Shown in pieces: positions 24,788 through 35,121 of a DNA stretch of 50,058 bases. Position 1 is the stretch's first letter, and each line of letters opens with the position of its first letter. The stretch lies in contig NZ_JAIYEP010000028.1 of assembly GCF_020515525.1 (NCBI RefSeq), positions 1 to 50,058 on the forward strand, written 5' to 3'. The notes beneath the pieces are model-generated. The model had not been told where the DNA came from. It saw only the letters and a program-made list of their open reading frames with translations, and did not search any database. The position numbers and the translations under genes are program-made. Source of the stretch: Rhodococcus yananensis. Its GTDB lineage: Bacteria; Actinomycetota; Actinomycetes; Mycobacteriales; Mycobacteriaceae.

Positions 24788-25357
24788 TCACCCCACTTCC
24801 GTGAGCACCGCCGGCGCCCACACCGGCCACCGGATCACACCGACCGGCTCACCCGCCGCGAACCGCGCCACCGGATCCGGCGTCCCCGACGCCGTGTCGT
24901 ACACCGTCGCCTGATCCGCACGACCGATCGCCTCGACCACCAGCGGCCACAACCGTCGGTACCGCGACCGGATCTTGTCCTCCGGCACCGAATGCCCCCC
25001 GGACACGACACGGTGCGCCACCCGCCGCACCGACATCGCCTCCGGCACCAGCATCACGTGCAACACCACCGTGAACCCCGCAGCCCGCGCCCGATCGATC
25101 AGATCGAGCTTCGACGGATGCGAGAACACCGTCTCGGCGATGAACGAGCGCCCCTCGGCGACGAACCGGTCCCGCACCGCCGCCGCGACCTGCGCCGCCT
25201 CGTACGACATCTCCTCGGCCCGCTCCCGCCACCGCTGCCGCGCGATCACATCGGCGTTGACGAACACACTGCCCGGCAGCAGGGGAGCGAGCGACAACTC
25301 CACGAACGTCGACTTCCCCGCACCGTTCGGCCCGACGATCAGATCCAGCCGCCTCAT
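24788..25357 (-). CDS. Zeta-toxin-like P-loop kinase
   Basis: The product is 189 residues with an N-terminal Walker A GPNGAGKST (about residues 8-16), VNADVIARQRW, and AETVFSHPSK, the order seen in zeta/PezT-like kinases that phosphorylate UDP-N-acetylglucosamine. It is shorter than PezT and may be a chromosomal variant with another substrate. The ATG overlaps the stop of the upstream gene by four bases (ATGA), so translation is coupled. The upstream gene is a ParD-like antitoxin candidate, making this a likely toxin-antitoxin pair. The kinase fold is clear; toxicity is inferred. Confidence 0.8.
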   Translation of the reverse strand: MRRLDLIVGPNGAGKSTFVELSLAPLLPGSVFVNADVIARQRWRERAEEMSYEAAQVAAAVRDRFVAEGRSFIAETVFSHPSKLDLIDRARAAGFTVVLHVMLVPEAMSVRRVAHRVVSGGHSVPEDKIRSRYRRLWPLVVEAIGRADQATVYDTASGTPDPVARFAAGEPVGVIRWPVWAPAVLTEVG

Positions 25358-25740
25358 GCCTCCTCGAGCACCACCGTCGTGCCGTCCGGCCGGCGCTCGA
25401 CCAACCGGCCCTGCTCGTCGAGCACCACCGTGGTGACACCGCGCGCGGCGAGCACCGCCGGATAGTCGGTGTCGGCGAGCCGGTCGGTGAGGCGGGCGTC
25501 GATCTCGGCGTTGAACAATCGACCCTCGGCGTCGGTGAGGTCGCCGGTCGGGCGGGTGCCGGCGAGCGCGTCGTGGACGCGACGCAGGGACGCCGTCTCG
25601 TGGGCGGTCATCGCGCGCCCGATCCGCGCCCAGTACTCGAGTTGCTGGCGGCCGGTGCGGTTCTGCCGGCCACCCTCGGCGATGGCACTGTCGACGAGTT
25701 CGGCGTCGAAACGGGTGACCTTGTCGGTGGACGGAGCCAT
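25354..25740 (-). CDS. ParD-like antitoxin
   Basis: A 128-residue protein starting at ATG 25740, five nt after an AGGAGG on the minus strand. The N-terminal part (MAPSTDKVTRFDAELVDSAIAEGGRQNRTGRQQLEYWARIGRAM) matches what I know of the ParD-like antitoxin family: a beta strand followed by helices for a ribbon-helix-helix-like DNA-binding fold. The charged C-terminal half (TDAEGRLFNAEIDARL, then VVLDEQGRLVERRPDGTTVVLEEA) probably wraps the toxin. It precedes and overlaps the zeta-like toxin gene. It may autorepress the pair, though no operator was identified with confidence. Confidence 0.75.
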   Translation of the reverse strand: MAPSTDKVTRFDAELVDSAIAEGGRQNRTGRQQLEYWARIGRAMTAHETASLRRVHDALAGTRPTGDLTDAEGRLFNAEIDARLTDRLADTDYPAVLAARGVTTVVLDEQGRLVERRPDGTTVVLEEA

Positions 25741-25842
25741 CACGACCTCCTCGTGTTGCAGTCTGCTACCGATCGTAGCTCAGTGATACCACCCTCGTCG
25801 TCCGCGACGAAACCGGGGCGCGTCACCGTCCACGAACACGCC

Positions 25843-27369: not shown

Positions 27370-27523
27370 GTGACATCCTCCTTCGTCGAAAGTGCGCTCA
27401 GCGTAGCGCCGTTCGGGCGCGCGCGCCGAGAGTCGGACGTCCCTGCCGCGGCGGCACACCGACACGGGGCAGGCAGCAGGGACACCCTCGGAGAACGGAG
27501 ATCGCGTGCGCGGATGCCACCGC

Positions 27524-27568
27524 ACCCCGACCCCAGTTTCGTCACAGTGACGTAATGGGGGTCGGGGT
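27524..27568. repeat. 45-nt concentric palindrome
   Basis: Outer arms ACCCCGACCCC (27524-27534) and GGGGTCGGGGT (27558-27568) pair perfectly. The inner arms CGTCAC (27540-27545) and GTGACG (27547-27552) share the same centre at 27546. It could be a cruciform or hairpin, or a protein-binding site. Confidence 0.8.
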
Positions 27569-27829
27569 ACCGGCCGTGGGGAGTGGTGGTCGAGACCGGA
27601 ACGGTCGTCGACTGCCGCGTCGACACAACCACCACGTCGACACAACCACACGGTGCCGCATCGCACACGGCGCCCGATGCGCACCCGCCGATCACCCGGG
27701 GCACCACGACGTGCGGGCGCGCCCCGGACCGACGCGGATCTCGTCGTGGATCACGATGCGGGGACGCGGCCATCCACCGGACGGGTCCGACGAATCCCGG
27801 CGACGACCCGAAGAACCCCCGGTCCCAAA

Positions 27830-27857
27830 TGTGCCGATAATCTACATTATGTCAACT
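27830..27857 (+). other. Chromosomal dif site (XerC/XerD recombination site)
   Basis: The 28-bp site has left arm TGTGCCGATAA (27830-27840), a 6-nt centre TCTACA and right arm TTATGTCAACT (27847-27857). Compared with E. coli dif the right arm matches at 9 of 11 positions and the left at 8 of 11. It also fits the actinobacterial dif pattern I recall (CCGATAAT, then ACATTATGTCAA). It is AT-rich in a very GC-rich setting and lies in the largest gene-free stretch of the window. XerC and XerD resolve chromosome dimers here, and FtsK loads toward it, so this marks the terminus. Confidence 0.85.
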
Positions 27858-28198
27858 TACGCGGAATCGGCCCTGCCCGACCGGGGTCGGAGCCTCCGCG
27901 GCGCGCATCTACGCGCACACGTTGGGCCGTGCGGGACCCCGCGGCCGCACGCCCGCGATCCGGCGCCGCCGTCCCGACCCGGAGGCCGAATCCGCCACCG
28001 GCGGGTTTCGCGCCCCACAGCCCGGGACGGTCACCGACGATCGGCGCCGCAGACGATCGGCGACGTGGCAGCGCCCACGCACACGACGACATGCCACGAC
28101 CCGCGGATCACGGGTGCACGGGACGCACCGCCGCGACCTCGGCCCGTTCCGCGGCACACCCCCGCTCGGCGCCGTCCCCACCCACCCAAAAATGATCT

Positions 28199-28239
28199 TG
28201 ATGGATAATCACCGTTATCCATCATTTCGTCACGTGACG
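28199..28239. promoter_or_regulatory. AT-rich inverted repeat followed by a 12-bp palindrome
   Basis: Arms TGATGGATAA (28199-28208) and TTATCCATCA (28215-28224) pair perfectly around six nt. Four bases later comes the perfect palindrome CGTCACGTGACG (28228-28239). The pair lies about 190 nt before the pentapeptide-repeat gene and looks like operator DNA or a structured site linked to dif. Confidence 0.5.
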
Positions 28240-28427
28240 CTACGATCTCGCGGCGCGCGCACGCTGCTACGCTGCGGGCAGTGATCGACATCCGTACCGC
28301 GTGACCACGTCCGCACCGCAGCGTCCCCCGCGGCGCCCCTCGCAGGCGGTGGCGATGCCGCATGCCCGGGTCGGGACCACCCTCCCGACCCCCGCGCCCG
28401 CATCGACCCCACCTCCACGGAGATCAC

Positions 28428-29285
28428 GTGAACACCACTCCCCTGCCCTTCGGCACCCGCCCCACCGCCGACGACGACCGTTCGACACTGCACGGCGACT
28501 GCCTCCGATGCCACGCATTATGTTGCACCGCACTCGGTTTCGAGCGCTCGGCCGATTTCGCCGTCGACAAACCGGCCGGCACACCGTGCCCGCAACTCGC
28601 CACCGACCACCGCTGCACCATCCACGACGCCCTGCGTGCCCGCGGCTACCGCGGCTGCACCGTGTACGACTGCTTCGGCGCCGGACAGATCGTGTCCGCC
28701 GCCACCGCAGACCGACACCCCGGACGGGCCCGTACCGCCTTCCCGCGGGTGCAGCACCTACACGAGATGCTGTGGCATCTGCACGACGCCGCCCACCGCA
28801 CCTACGACCCCGACACCGCCGCGGACGCCCGCGCCCTCACCGAGGAGATCCACACCGCCGTCACCGCCGTCACCGCCGTCACCACGGGGACGACACCCAA
28901 CCGCACCGAACCCGACATTCCGGATCTGCATGCCCGCGTGCGGGCCCTGCTCCGCGGCGTCAGCGACGAGATCCGCGGATCCTACCCCCCGATCGACGAG
29001 GACCGGCCCCGGCTCGCGGCCGGCGTCGACCTCGCCGGCGCCGACCTGCGCCACCGCCGCGTGTACGCCGCGGATCTGCGCGGCGCCTGCCTCATCGGCG
29101 CCGACCTGCGCGGCTGCGACCTCACCGACGCCGATCTGCTCGGCGCGGACCTGCGCGACGCCCGCATCGACGACGCTGATCTGTCCCGCGCCCTGTACGT
29201 GACCTCGCCGCAGATCGGGGCGGCGCGCGGCAACCGGTGCACCCGCCTTCCCGCCGACATCCCGCCACCGTCACATTTCCGGTGA
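28428..29285 (+). CDS. Cys-rich N-terminal domain fused to pentapeptide repeats
   Basis: The 285-residue protein starts at GTG 28428 after a GGAG; the frame upstream is Pro/Arg-rich and non-coding in character. Residues about 20-70 hold a Cys cluster (HGDCLRCHALCCTALGF ... PCPQL ... HRCTIHD ... GCTVYDCFGAG), probably binding zinc or an Fe-S cluster, somewhat like YkgJ-type proteins. The middle is helical. The C-terminal part (about 200-260) is a short pentapeptide-repeat run: VDLAGADLRHRRVYAADLRGACLIGADLRGCDLTDADLLGADLRDARIDDADL, which should form a right-handed beta helix. Function is unknown. The gene is the first one beyond dif on this side. Confidence 0.8.
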   Translation: MNTTPLPFGTRPTADDDRSTLHGDCLRCHALCCTALGFERSADFAVDKPAGTPCPQLATDHRCTIHDALRARGYRGCTVYDCFGAGQIVSAATADRHPGRARTAFPRVQHLHEMLWHLHDAAHRTYDPDTAADARALTEEIHTAVTAVTAVTTGTTPNRTEPDIPDLHARVRALLRGVSDEIRGSYPPIDEDRPRLAAGVDLAGADLRHRRVYAADLRGACLIGADLRGCDLTDADLLGADLRDARIDDADLSRALYVTSPQIGAARGNRCTRLPADIPPPSHFR

Positions 29286-29430: not shown

Positions 29431-30474
29431 ATGACGAGCCGGGACGAACCGGGCCTGTGGGACTGGGTGACGTCGTACCTGGAGACCCTGCAGACCGCGA
29501 AACGGTCCGCGCACACCGTCAAGGCGTACCGGCTCGACCTCCTCGGAGTGTGCACCGCGCTCGCTGCCGCGCGCGGCAGCGAGGTGGCGGCGTTGCTCGT
29601 CGAGGATCTGACGATCCGGGCGTTGCGGTCGGCGTTCGCGGAGTTCGCCCGCGAGCGCCGACCCGCGTCGGTGCGGCGCGCCTGGTCGGTGTGGAACAAC
29701 TTCTGTAATTTCCTGGTCACCGAGGGGGTGTCGGAGGGCAATCCGATGGCGTCGATCACCCAGCCCAAACGCCCCGAGCACACCCCGAAATCGTTCACCC
29801 CGGCCGCGGTCGACCAACTCGTCGACACCGTCACCCGTGACGCCGCGCATCCGGCGGAGTCGGCACGGGACTGGCCGGGCCGCGATCTCGCGTTGATCGC
29901 GACGCTGCTGTTGACGGGGATCCGCTCGGAGGAGCTGATCTCGTTGAATCTGTCGAGCATTCTCGGCGGGACCGCCGCTCCGGTGTTGCGGGTGCACGGC
30001 AAGGGCGCGGTGGAGCGGGAGATCCCGCTCGAGGACAGTTGGACGGCGATCGTGTCGGCGTATCTGGAGGAGCGGTACACCCGCTTCCCTCCCCTGCGTC
30101 GCACGGTCCTGGCGGCGCGGACGGATCTGCCGGTGTGGGAGCGGCATCCCGGCGACGATCCGTTGTTCGTGGGGGCGGACGGCACGCGGATCACGCGGGG
30201 CACGCTGCAGTACCGGGTGCGGCGGGTGTACCGGCGGGCCGGTATCGAGTCCGAACGCAAACGTGGGGCGTTGGCGCACGCGTTGCGGCACACGTTCGCG
30301 ACGAGTCTGGCGGACAGCGGCGCGACGATGATCGAGTTGCAGCAGCTGCTGGGTCACCGGTCGTTGCAGACGGTGCAGATCTACACGTCGGCGACGAACG
30401 AGGCGGTGCGGCACGCGGCGCGGCACAATCCGGTGTACGGGCTGCTCGGCGAGCGTTCCGACGACGCGCGGTGA
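29431..30474 (+). CDS. Tyrosine recombinase / integrase, Xer-like
   Basis: A 347-residue protein from ATG 29431 behind GGGAGG. The N-terminal SAM-like core-binding domain (about 1-115: WVTSYLETLQTAKRSAHTVKAYRLDL) precedes the catalytic domain with the full set of residues: Arg165 in LTGIRSEEL, His283 and Arg286 in HALRHTFAT, His309 in LLGHRS, Tyr318 nucleophile in TVQIYTSAT. It cuts and rejoins DNA through a 3'-phosphotyrosine. It is longer than usual XerC/XerD (about 300 residues), so it is probably not the housekeeping dif recombinase, although it lies 1.6 kb from dif. No att-type direct repeats or phage genes flank it. Confidence 0.9.
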   Translation: MTSRDEPGLWDWVTSYLETLQTAKRSAHTVKAYRLDLLGVCTALAAARGSEVAALLVEDLTIRALRSAFAEFARERRPASVRRAWSVWNNFCNFLVTEGVSEGNPMASITQPKRPEHTPKSFTPAAVDQLVDTVTRDAAHPAESARDWPGRDLALIATLLLTGIRSEELISLNLSSILGGTAAPVLRVHGKGAVEREIPLEDSWTAIVSAYLEERYTRFPPLRRTVLAARTDLPVWERHPGDDPLFVGADGTRITRGTLQYRVRRVYRRAGIESERKRGALAHALRHTFATSLADSGATMIELQQLLGHRSLQTVQIYTSATNEAVRHAARHNPVYGLLGERSDDAR

Positions 30475-33693: not shown

Positions 33694-35121
33694 GTGACCA
33701 CCACCCGACCACCCGAGATCCCCGCCGCCGTCACCGCGCCGCCCGGGCCGTCCCTGCCGGTCCGCCGGGCCGGCGCCGAACTCTTCGACATGCTGCTGCT
33801 CGCCGTCCCCGTGCTCATCGGAGTGCTCCTCGTCGACACCCTCGGCGAGGCCAACGGCGGCGGACAGACCGATCGGCTCGTCTTCGGTGGCGCCGCCGCC
33901 CTGGTCGCCGCCGGATTCCTGCTGTGGAACCGGGGGATCCGCGAGGGCCGCACCGGGACCTCCCTCGGCAAGCAGTGGACCGGTGTACTCACCCGCGACC
34001 CCGACACCGACGGCCCCGTCGGCACCCTCCGGGCCCTGTTCCGCGTCCGCACCCAGGTGGTCACCGCGCGCGAGGCGGCGCTCGACGGTTTCGCTCCGCG
34101 TCCCCCGGACACGTCGGTCGCCGCGATCCGCCGGCGGCGCCTCGGCGGCCTCGCCGTCCTGCTGATCCTGCTGGTCCTGGTGCTGCTCGCGTCCGTCGCC
34201 ATCGGCGCCCGACCGATGACGTTCGCGGAGGTCTACCACGCGCTCGTGGTCAACGACGGCGCCGAAACCGATGTCATCGTGCAGTCGCTCCGCGTCCCCC
34301 GCACCCTGCTCGGCCTCGTCGTCGGCATCGCCCTCGGCGTCGCCGGCGCCCTCATCCAGGGACACACCCGCAACCCCCTCGCCGACGCCGGGCTCCTCGG
34401 CATCAACGGCGGCGCCGCGCTGCTCGTGGTCCTGTCCATCTACCTGTTCGGCACCAGCACCCCCATCGAATACCTCTGGTTCTCCTTCGCCGGTTCCCTT
34501 CTGGCCAGCGTCGTCGTGTTCGGTTTCGCCTCCATCGGCAACGGCGGGTCGAGCCCACTGAGCCTCGCCCTCGCCGGCGCCGCCGTCGCCTTCTTCCTCC
34601 AGGCGATGGTGCAGACCATCGTGCTGCTCGACCAGACCAGCCTCGACGGCTTCCGCTTCTGGGTGGTCGGTTCCGTCGCGGGACGCGGATTCGACGTGTT
34701 CTGGCAGGTCCTGCCGTTCATCGTCGCCGGGCTCGTCATCGCGCTGGCCTCCACCCCCGGCCTGAACGTACTGAGCCTCGGCGACGACGTCGCCCGCTCC
34801 CTGGGCACCAACATCGCCCTGACCCGGGTGATCGGCATCACCGTCATCACGATCCTCACCGGCGCCGCCACCGCCGCCTGCGGCCCCATCGCGTTCGTCG
34901 GCCTGATCGTGCCGCACATCGCCCGCGCCATCACCGGCCCCGACTACCGGTGGCTCGTGCCCTACGCCGGGCTGCTCGGCGGGGTCCTGCTGGTACTCGC
35001 CGACGTCATCGGCCGCATCGTGGTGCGCCCCGGGGAACTGCAGGTCGGCATCGTCCTCGCGCTCGTCGGCGCCCCGTTCTTCATCGCACTCGTGCGTCGC
35101 CGGAAGCTGGTGTCACTGTGA
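33694..35121 (+). CDS. Iron-siderophore ABC permease with N-terminal RDD domain
   Basis: A 475-residue fusion starting at GTG 33694; AGGAG lies further upstream than usual. Residues about 24-130 (RRAGAELFDMLLLAVPVLIGVLL ... GTSLGKQWTGVLTRDPDTDGPVGTLRALFR) look like an RDD membrane domain: two hydrophobic helices, then a G-T-S-L-G-K segment. Residues about 145-475 are a complete FecCD-type permease with RRLGGLAVLLILLVLVLLA, RVPRTLLGLVVGIALGVAGALIQGHTRNPLADAGLLGINGGA, and the ATPase-coupling loop GDDVARSLG. It forms half of the membrane channel, with the next gene as partner. FecCD permeases are normally about 330-350 residues, so the extra domain is clear. Its stop overlaps the next start (GTGA). 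Confidence 0.9.
   Translation: MTTTRPPEIPAAVTAPPGPSLPVRRAGAELFDMLLLAVPVLIGVLLVDTLGEANGGGQTDRLVFGGAAALVAAGFLLWNRGIREGRTGTSLGKQWTGVLTRDPDTDGPVGTLRALFRVRTQVVTAREAALDGFAPRPPDTSVAAIRRRRLGGLAVLLILLVLVLLASVAIGARPMTFAEVYHALVVNDGAETDVIVQSLRVPRTLLGLVVGIALGVAGALIQGHTRNPLADAGLLGINGGAALLVVLSIYLFGTSTPIEYLWFSFAGSLLASVVVFGFASIGNGGSSPLSLALAGAAVAFFLQAMVQTIVLLDQTSLDGFRFWVVGSVAGRGFDVFWQVLPFIVAGLVIALASTPGLNVLSLGDDVARSLGTNIALTRVIGITVITILTGAATAACGPIAFVGLIVPHIARAITGPDYRWLVPYAGLLGGVLLVLADVIGRIVVRPGELQVGIVLALVGAPFFIALVRRRKLVSL

Follow-up and report, generated by a model that had tools for sequence, protein, structure and literature searches.

Two single-recombinase systems, XerS/difSL of streptococci and lactococci and XerH/difH of Helicobacter and Campylobacter, are described as replacing the canonical XerC/XerD pair (PMC5357621). 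A third, XerL/dif of the Legionellales, combines a single recombinase with a palindromic site near the terminus (PMC9765430). For actinobacteria, a dif sequence has been proposed in Frankia alni (PMC3025954) and serves as our reference below.

The window analyzed here is a stretch of 50,058 nucleotides that makes up the entire contig C28 of the draft assembly of Rhodococcus yananensis. It contains a canonical dif, a second Xer-type site close by and a gene for a third Xer-like tyrosine recombinase; the original prediction for this DNA described the first of these features and included neither the second site nor the recombinase. Like XerS/difSL and XerH/difH, the additional module consists of one Xer-like recombinase and one dif-like site that often lies beside the gene. 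Those systems replace XerCD/dif, whereas the canonical pair and dif are retained here, and the difSL center measures 11 bp compared to 6 bp in the second site (PMC5357621). XerL resembles the module in that its gene can be plasmid-borne or lie >400 kb off with a site still present on the chromosome, but XerL hosts have no XerC, XerD, XerS or XerH orthologues and no canonical dif a few hundred bases off, both of which differ from the situation here (PMC9765430). When set against the actinobacterial XerC/XerD dif (PMC3025954), the dif itself is no different: the arms, the 6-bp center and the single copy are alike, as are the position opposite the origin (in complete relatives) and the presence of XerC and XerD genes, and the adjoining second site is the only difference. 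The module thus shares with single-recombinase Xer systems the catalytic set and one two-arm, short-center site near the terminus, but it does not replace XerC/XerD, which all 28 genomes searched encode, including the 21 that have the module. Because the canonical pair is retained, we do not file the module under XerS, XerH or XerL and liken it to them only in its working. The literature search, in the accessible portions of the papers, returned no second dif-like site and no dif-linked third recombinase in actinobacteria; subscription papers lay mostly outside its scope and the absence is unproven.

The dif site occupies positions 27830–27857 of the + strand and consists of a XerC arm (TGTGCCGATAA), the center TCTACA and a XerD arm (TTATGTCAACT). 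All 28 bases are located exactly there, with the two arms and the 6-nt center that the original prediction had described. It agrees with the published Frankia alni dif in 22 of its 28 bases, where the runner-up position in the window reaches 17. None of 100 shuffled windows contained a dif match at ≤3 mismatches. The arm matches to E. coli dif given earlier (8/11 and 9/11) fit the E. coli sequence. Within the complete draft genome (4,246,627 bases in 178 contigs) this is the single dif match at ≤3 mismatches, and no other or better copy of the kind that would have spoken against the prediction was found. At ≤2 mismatches, the dif core CCGATAATNNACATTATGTCAA is present in 57 of 61 genomes (this one and 60 relatives), with multiple matches in seven of the 57. 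Across the order, 272 of 298 genomes have it, the present one counted. The genome also encodes the XerC/XerD pair, with scores of 365 and 275 bits against NF001399 on contigs C47 and C3, respectively; the 275-bit match is slightly under the curated cut-off of 279, as is likewise the case in many of the 28 genomes in which the pair was sought. On account of its sequence, its single copy, its conservation in relatives, its position opposite dnaA in 18 relatives and the accompanying XerC/XerD pair, 27830–27857 is a genuine canonical chromosomal XerCD dif. A chance resemblance is ruled out by the shuffles, the single genomic copy and the conservation.

The original prediction further held that the window probably spans the replication terminus. 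We sought and found dnaA in 25 of 25 complete or near-complete relatives and computed the position of dif for 18 of them, in which it falls at 0.453–0.557 of the main chromosome from dnaA. The position of dif opposite dnaA in these relatives supports the terminus assignment for the window, whose own genome is a draft. The GC skew of one complete congener (G011), sampled as 40 stretches of 20 kb, is weak: its cumulative minimum falls at the sample starting at 2,440,001, with dif at 2,424,489, and the difference between the left and right sides has p=0.06. A replication terminus usually coincides with the cumulative skew maximum, not the minimum. The window contains no polarity switch of KOPS (E. 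coli-type motif) at dif, as all 15 motifs are on the minus strand, 11 to the left of the site and four to the right. In six relatives (G011, G017, G010, G001, G026 and G283), the stronger canonical recombinase gene (362–379 bits) is located ~45–118 kb from dif.

With the start codons that we chose, dif lies within a non-coding stretch of ~1.06 kb (27370–28427) flanked by a glyoxalase-family gene and a pentapeptide-repeat protein gene. The earlier proposal that dif explains why this region is non-coding is incomplete, since the gap houses two sites. An Rfam scan of the window returned nothing above gathering scores. The second Xer-type site, at 28198–28225, reads TTGATGGATAA-TCACCG-TTATCCATCAT and has an 11-6-11 layout, with arms that are 10/11 palindromic and an asymmetric 6-bp center. 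It shares the inner bases ATAA/TTAT with dif, from which it is separated by 367 bp (center to center), and a genome-wide search at ≤3 mismatches finds its 24-base core nowhere else. In an alignment of 18 Rhodococcus genomes over the region, dif and the second site are the sole conserved islands, and in all 18 the second site is 362–499 bp from dif on the XerD-arm side. Across 97 distinct second sites, the arm-to-arm match exceeds that of all 2000 shuffles at five of six variable positions, counts that are inflated by the sites having been chosen partly for symmetry, drawn from all available loci and being related by descent. None of the 97 centers is palindromic.

The recombinase gene, at 29431–30474 (+), encodes 347 amino acids from the chosen ATG. 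It is separated from the second site by the pentapeptide-repeat gene (28428–29285, +), which is probably not a module component. A longer frame starting at 29296 matches Pfam Phage_integrase at 3.9e-25. Residues R165, K191, H283, R286, H309 and Y318 are invariant among eight aligned recombinases and constitute what we take to be the catalytic set of the family, which is complete here. Among the NCBIfam models tried, XerC scores best at 174.5 bits (cut-off 335), followed by XerD at 155.3 (330), XerA at 123.9 (220) and XerS at 61.9 (267), all of which are under the curated cut-offs, so that none of the four models claims the protein. Each of the 28 genomes searched, of which 21 have the module and seven lack it, keeps the canonical pair as two stronger matches of 242–382 bits, and 29431–30474 is a third recombinase besides canonical XerC/XerD. 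An orthologue is present in 18 of 18 Rhodococcus genomes, at 78–87% identity in the other 17. A phage origin was considered and rejected: nine phage records match the recombinase at E≤1e-10, at identities of only 26.5–31.5%, and viral contigs contain no exact match to the window's own version of the 22-base core of the second site. A further Xer-like recombinase (156–165 bits), besides the dif-linked one, is encoded ~12–44 kb from dif in six genomes of family f15 that were searched (G050:C1:848570, G064:C3:3840359, G083:C1:2123422, G257:C1:2642315, G265:C1:5488126 and G327:C1:1821656).

We searched the same 298 genomes of the order for both elements of the module, using alignment A1 at E≤1e-40 for the recombinase and the pattern TSATGSATAAN6TTATSCATSA at ≤2 mismatches, anywhere in the genome, for the site. 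The recombinase was found in 84 genomes and thus lacking at this threshold in 214, and the site was found in 89. The site is present in 81 of the 84 genomes with the recombinase and in eight of the 214 without (Fisher p ~2e-59, relatedness ignored), and the reversed pattern used as a control had no matches in any row. Three of the eight site-only genomes (G118:C177, G246:C261 and G301:C339, drafts of one genus) have contig ends within ~170 bases of the site, at the place expected for the start of the gene; the region is perhaps poorly assembled as a result of recombination. The other five all belong to genus g42 and include G217 and G150, in which a site is found 0.8 and 3.6 kb from dif, respectively, without the recombinase. 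Among the three genomes with the recombinase and no site at the threshold, G261 has a more-mismatched site, and G077 and G191 have no recognizable one. In G310 the match that was counted is elsewhere in the genome and a weaker site adjoins its dif. Scoring of 3-kb stretches around dif separates the two groups: all 10 recombinase-encoding genomes score ≥18.5, and all 20 that lack it score ≤16.

A comparison of distances reveals that the second site is tied to dif rather than to the gene. In several families the site is ~0.25–1.4 kb from dif, even where the gene is 0.05–1.6 Mb off. Within Rhodococcus the site remains ~0.4 kb from dif in 18 of 18 genomes while the distance of the gene varies, from 1.2 to 62 kb in the 14 that have gene and dif on the same contig. 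The order dif-site-gene is observed in 41 of 41 loci (40 from f15 and one from f8), with 330–1406 bp between dif and the site; this count excludes three of 43 f15 members for which no dif was found at ≤2 mismatches; in two of these three, dif is present at three mismatches. For family f14, we examined 20 of 32 gene regions and found dif within 1 kb of the gene in 13 and none within 8 kb in the remaining seven. In those seven genomes and two more (nine of nine), the site is ~340–615 bp from dif and the gene is 0.14–1.6 Mb off or on another contig.

The same arrangement extends to named genomes, some of which also belong to these sets. Among the best 80 of at least 349 relatives, 49 have dif (≤3 mismatches) within reach, and the site is 257–1339 bp away in 46 of these 49, a site score reached by none of 123 control stretches. 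The 46 include Rhodococcus, Williamsia, Amycolatopsis, Lentzea, Kutzneria, Kribbella, Nocardiopsis, Micromonospora and Actinoplanes. The three exceptions are L137 (Mycobacterium lehmannii) and L167 (Kineococcus), which have no second site near their dif-like match, and L206, which is barely under the threshold. Of the 46, 19 have the module on the XerD-arm side and 27 on the XerC-arm side, and it is therefore not one unchanged inherited arrangement. Seven of seven sampled f15 genomes of genus g60 (G105, G139, G153, G203, G235, G285 and G323) lack dif at ≤3 mismatches and also lack the second site and the recombinase; judging by this joint absence, both systems are altered or lost in the genus.

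The reading that we favor, at a probability of roughly 0.7, is that of a terminus with two Xer systems side by side: XerCD/dif and a predicted single-recombinase module that would unlink chromosomes at the same place. This reading brings together the sequences, the co-occurrence and the tight anchoring of the site to dif with the gene sometimes far away. The architecture of the module and the co-occurrence of its parts suggest that the recombinase putatively recombines the 28198–28225 site, and the position of the site points to a putative role in chromosome unlinking at an FtsK-served terminus, as a back-up to XerCD/dif or in the same zone. XerC and XerD, whose genes lie elsewhere, would bind dif, while the recombinase, or a relative that is sometimes encoded far away, would bind both near-identical arms of the second site. 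Two second sites on sister chromosomes could then synapse, and strand exchange across the asymmetric 6-bp center would resolve dimers or links, by analogy with Cre, XerH and XerS at their sites. The closeness of the second site to dif suggests that this would happen where FtsK joins the two termini. The plasmid relatives described below may perform the same task for plasmids. A counterpoint is that canonical XerC and XerD are present in every one of the 28 genomes tested, and a second dimer-resolution system is therefore not required. Also to be set against the reading are the 214 of 298 genomes that do without such a recombinase, the cases of a recombinase with no recognizable site (G077, G191, L137, L167 and three of 10 plasmids), the sites near dif in G217 and G150, which have no recombinase, and the lack of a KOPS polarity switch at dif in the window.

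More tentatively, and at somewhat less than even odds, many actinobacteria may have two orthogonal unlinking systems at one composite terminus, where the site must stay within ~1.5 kb of dif and the third recombinase is horizontally mobile, plasmid-related and probably makes use of the FtsK/XerCD-dif synapse. The systems described in the accessible literature consist of XerCD/dif or of a single-recombinase substitute; a second conserved site, if true, would mean one terminus with two systems. The question of why one system is insufficient would become testable, with the removal of catenanes, cells that lack active FtsK, growth as filaments or during sporulation, and plasmid-chromosome coordination as candidate circumstances. 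The module would also illustrate how a plasmid-type resolution unit could be recruited to a chromosome terminus.

Relatives of the recombinase are encoded on 58 PLSDB plasmids, from Mycobacterium (32), Rhodococcus (18), Mycolicibacterium (six), Prescottella (one) and Corynebacterium (one), with identities of ~38–45% among the 40 matches listed. We examined 10 plasmids, two of which carry an identical recombinase protein, and identified a palindromic Xer-type site 40–954 bp before the gene on seven and no site at the threshold on the other three. The arms of the Rhodococcus plasmid sites (TTGCTAGATAA and TTGCTACATAA) are unlike those of the chromosomal site. The plasmid records examined annotate the gene merely as 'tyrosine-type recombinase/integrase', and the present analysis offers a likely role for it.

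A tree of the recombinases places the proteins of the module, plasmid copies included, apart from the canonical ones with 100/100 support, under midpoint rooting and with a program warning that the long branch of the weaker canonical row meets the branch of the module; it includes 12 canonical rows (11 of the stronger XerD-like type and one weaker) and leaves out three far paralogues. Within the module, Kribbella falls inside Pseudonocardiaceae, and Williamsia and the g42 chromosome G310, both of which have dif ~0.5 kb from the gene, are placed beside plasmid and mycobacterial copies. These placements indicate that the module moved between lineages, and its placement at dif probably arose more than once.

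In genus g42, the recombinase is present in four of 34 genomes. G164 encodes it on a 191-kb contig and has a site 939 bp from the chromosomal dif, with no recombinase in the 19 kb examined around that dif, an arrangement reminiscent of Coxiella, in which XerL is plasmid-borne (PMC9765430). In G061 and G241, where the recombinase is likewise on a plasmid, the chromosomal dif has no second site within 5 kb. Three plasmid-sized contigs of the genus (G061:C2, G241:C2 and G164:C1) each contain two copies of the second site 10–99 kb apart, between which inversion or deletion would be possible.

The plasmid relatives, the tree placements that imply movement between lineages and the patchy presence in g42 are also what would be expected if the recombinase and its site were the remnant of a mobile element (a plasmid or an IMEX) that entered at dif, in which case the linkage would be historical rather than functional. 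We consider this the strongest of the alternatives and nonetheless improbable, as an element of this kind would not readily account for the presence of the module in all 18 Rhodococcus genomes or for a dif-site distance that is short across several families while the gene distance is variable. The site is moreover conserved where its surroundings are not, which suggests selection on it, and the phage matches are as distant as noted above. An IMEX bounded by two dif copies was considered separately and set aside, since the single dif copy in the genome leaves no dif-bounded element.

It is also conceivable that only the ordinary dif matters, with the palindrome serving as an operator for a regulator, such as one controlling the recombinase gene, and the third recombinase being a stray integrase. 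In the 41 f15 and f8 loci the palindrome indeed precedes the matched portion of the gene by 23–220 bp, and on five of the 10 plasmids examined it precedes the annotated start by 40–102 bp, as an operator would. Against this, the site remains with dif when the gene is elsewhere, both in Rhodococcus and in the nine f14 genomes, and this makes the operator reading unlikely. The 11-6-11 layout with inner ATAA/TTAT is the design of a Xer site, and conservation of the gene in all 17 congeners is not what a stray integrase would be expected to exhibit. On balance, we give the operator and stray integrase little credence. The idea that XerC/XerD themselves use the second site as an accessory or alternative target (a second dif) and are modulated by the third recombinase draws on the dif-like arm length, center length and inner bases and on the constant closeness to dif, but is very doubtful because the site tracks the third recombinase while XerC/XerD are in all 28 genomes tested and because seven of the 10 plasmid copies have their own site upstream of the gene. 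A module of one recombinase and one site working alongside XerCD/dif thus remains our preferred reading of the locus.

Other parts of the window encode two further features. A ParD-like antitoxin gene and a zeta-toxin-like kinase gene, which overlap by four bases at 24788–25743 (–), ~2 kb from dif, likely form a toxin-antitoxin pair. The left half of the window is dominated by a single open frame of 7408 codons (1269–23495, +) that contains condensation, AMP-binding and carrier domains in the 2000 residues scanned and encodes a giant non-ribosomal peptide synthetase. At 33694–35121 lies the gene for a FecCD-type permease with an RDD domain, and the occurrence of both in the same window makes a siderophore cluster likely.
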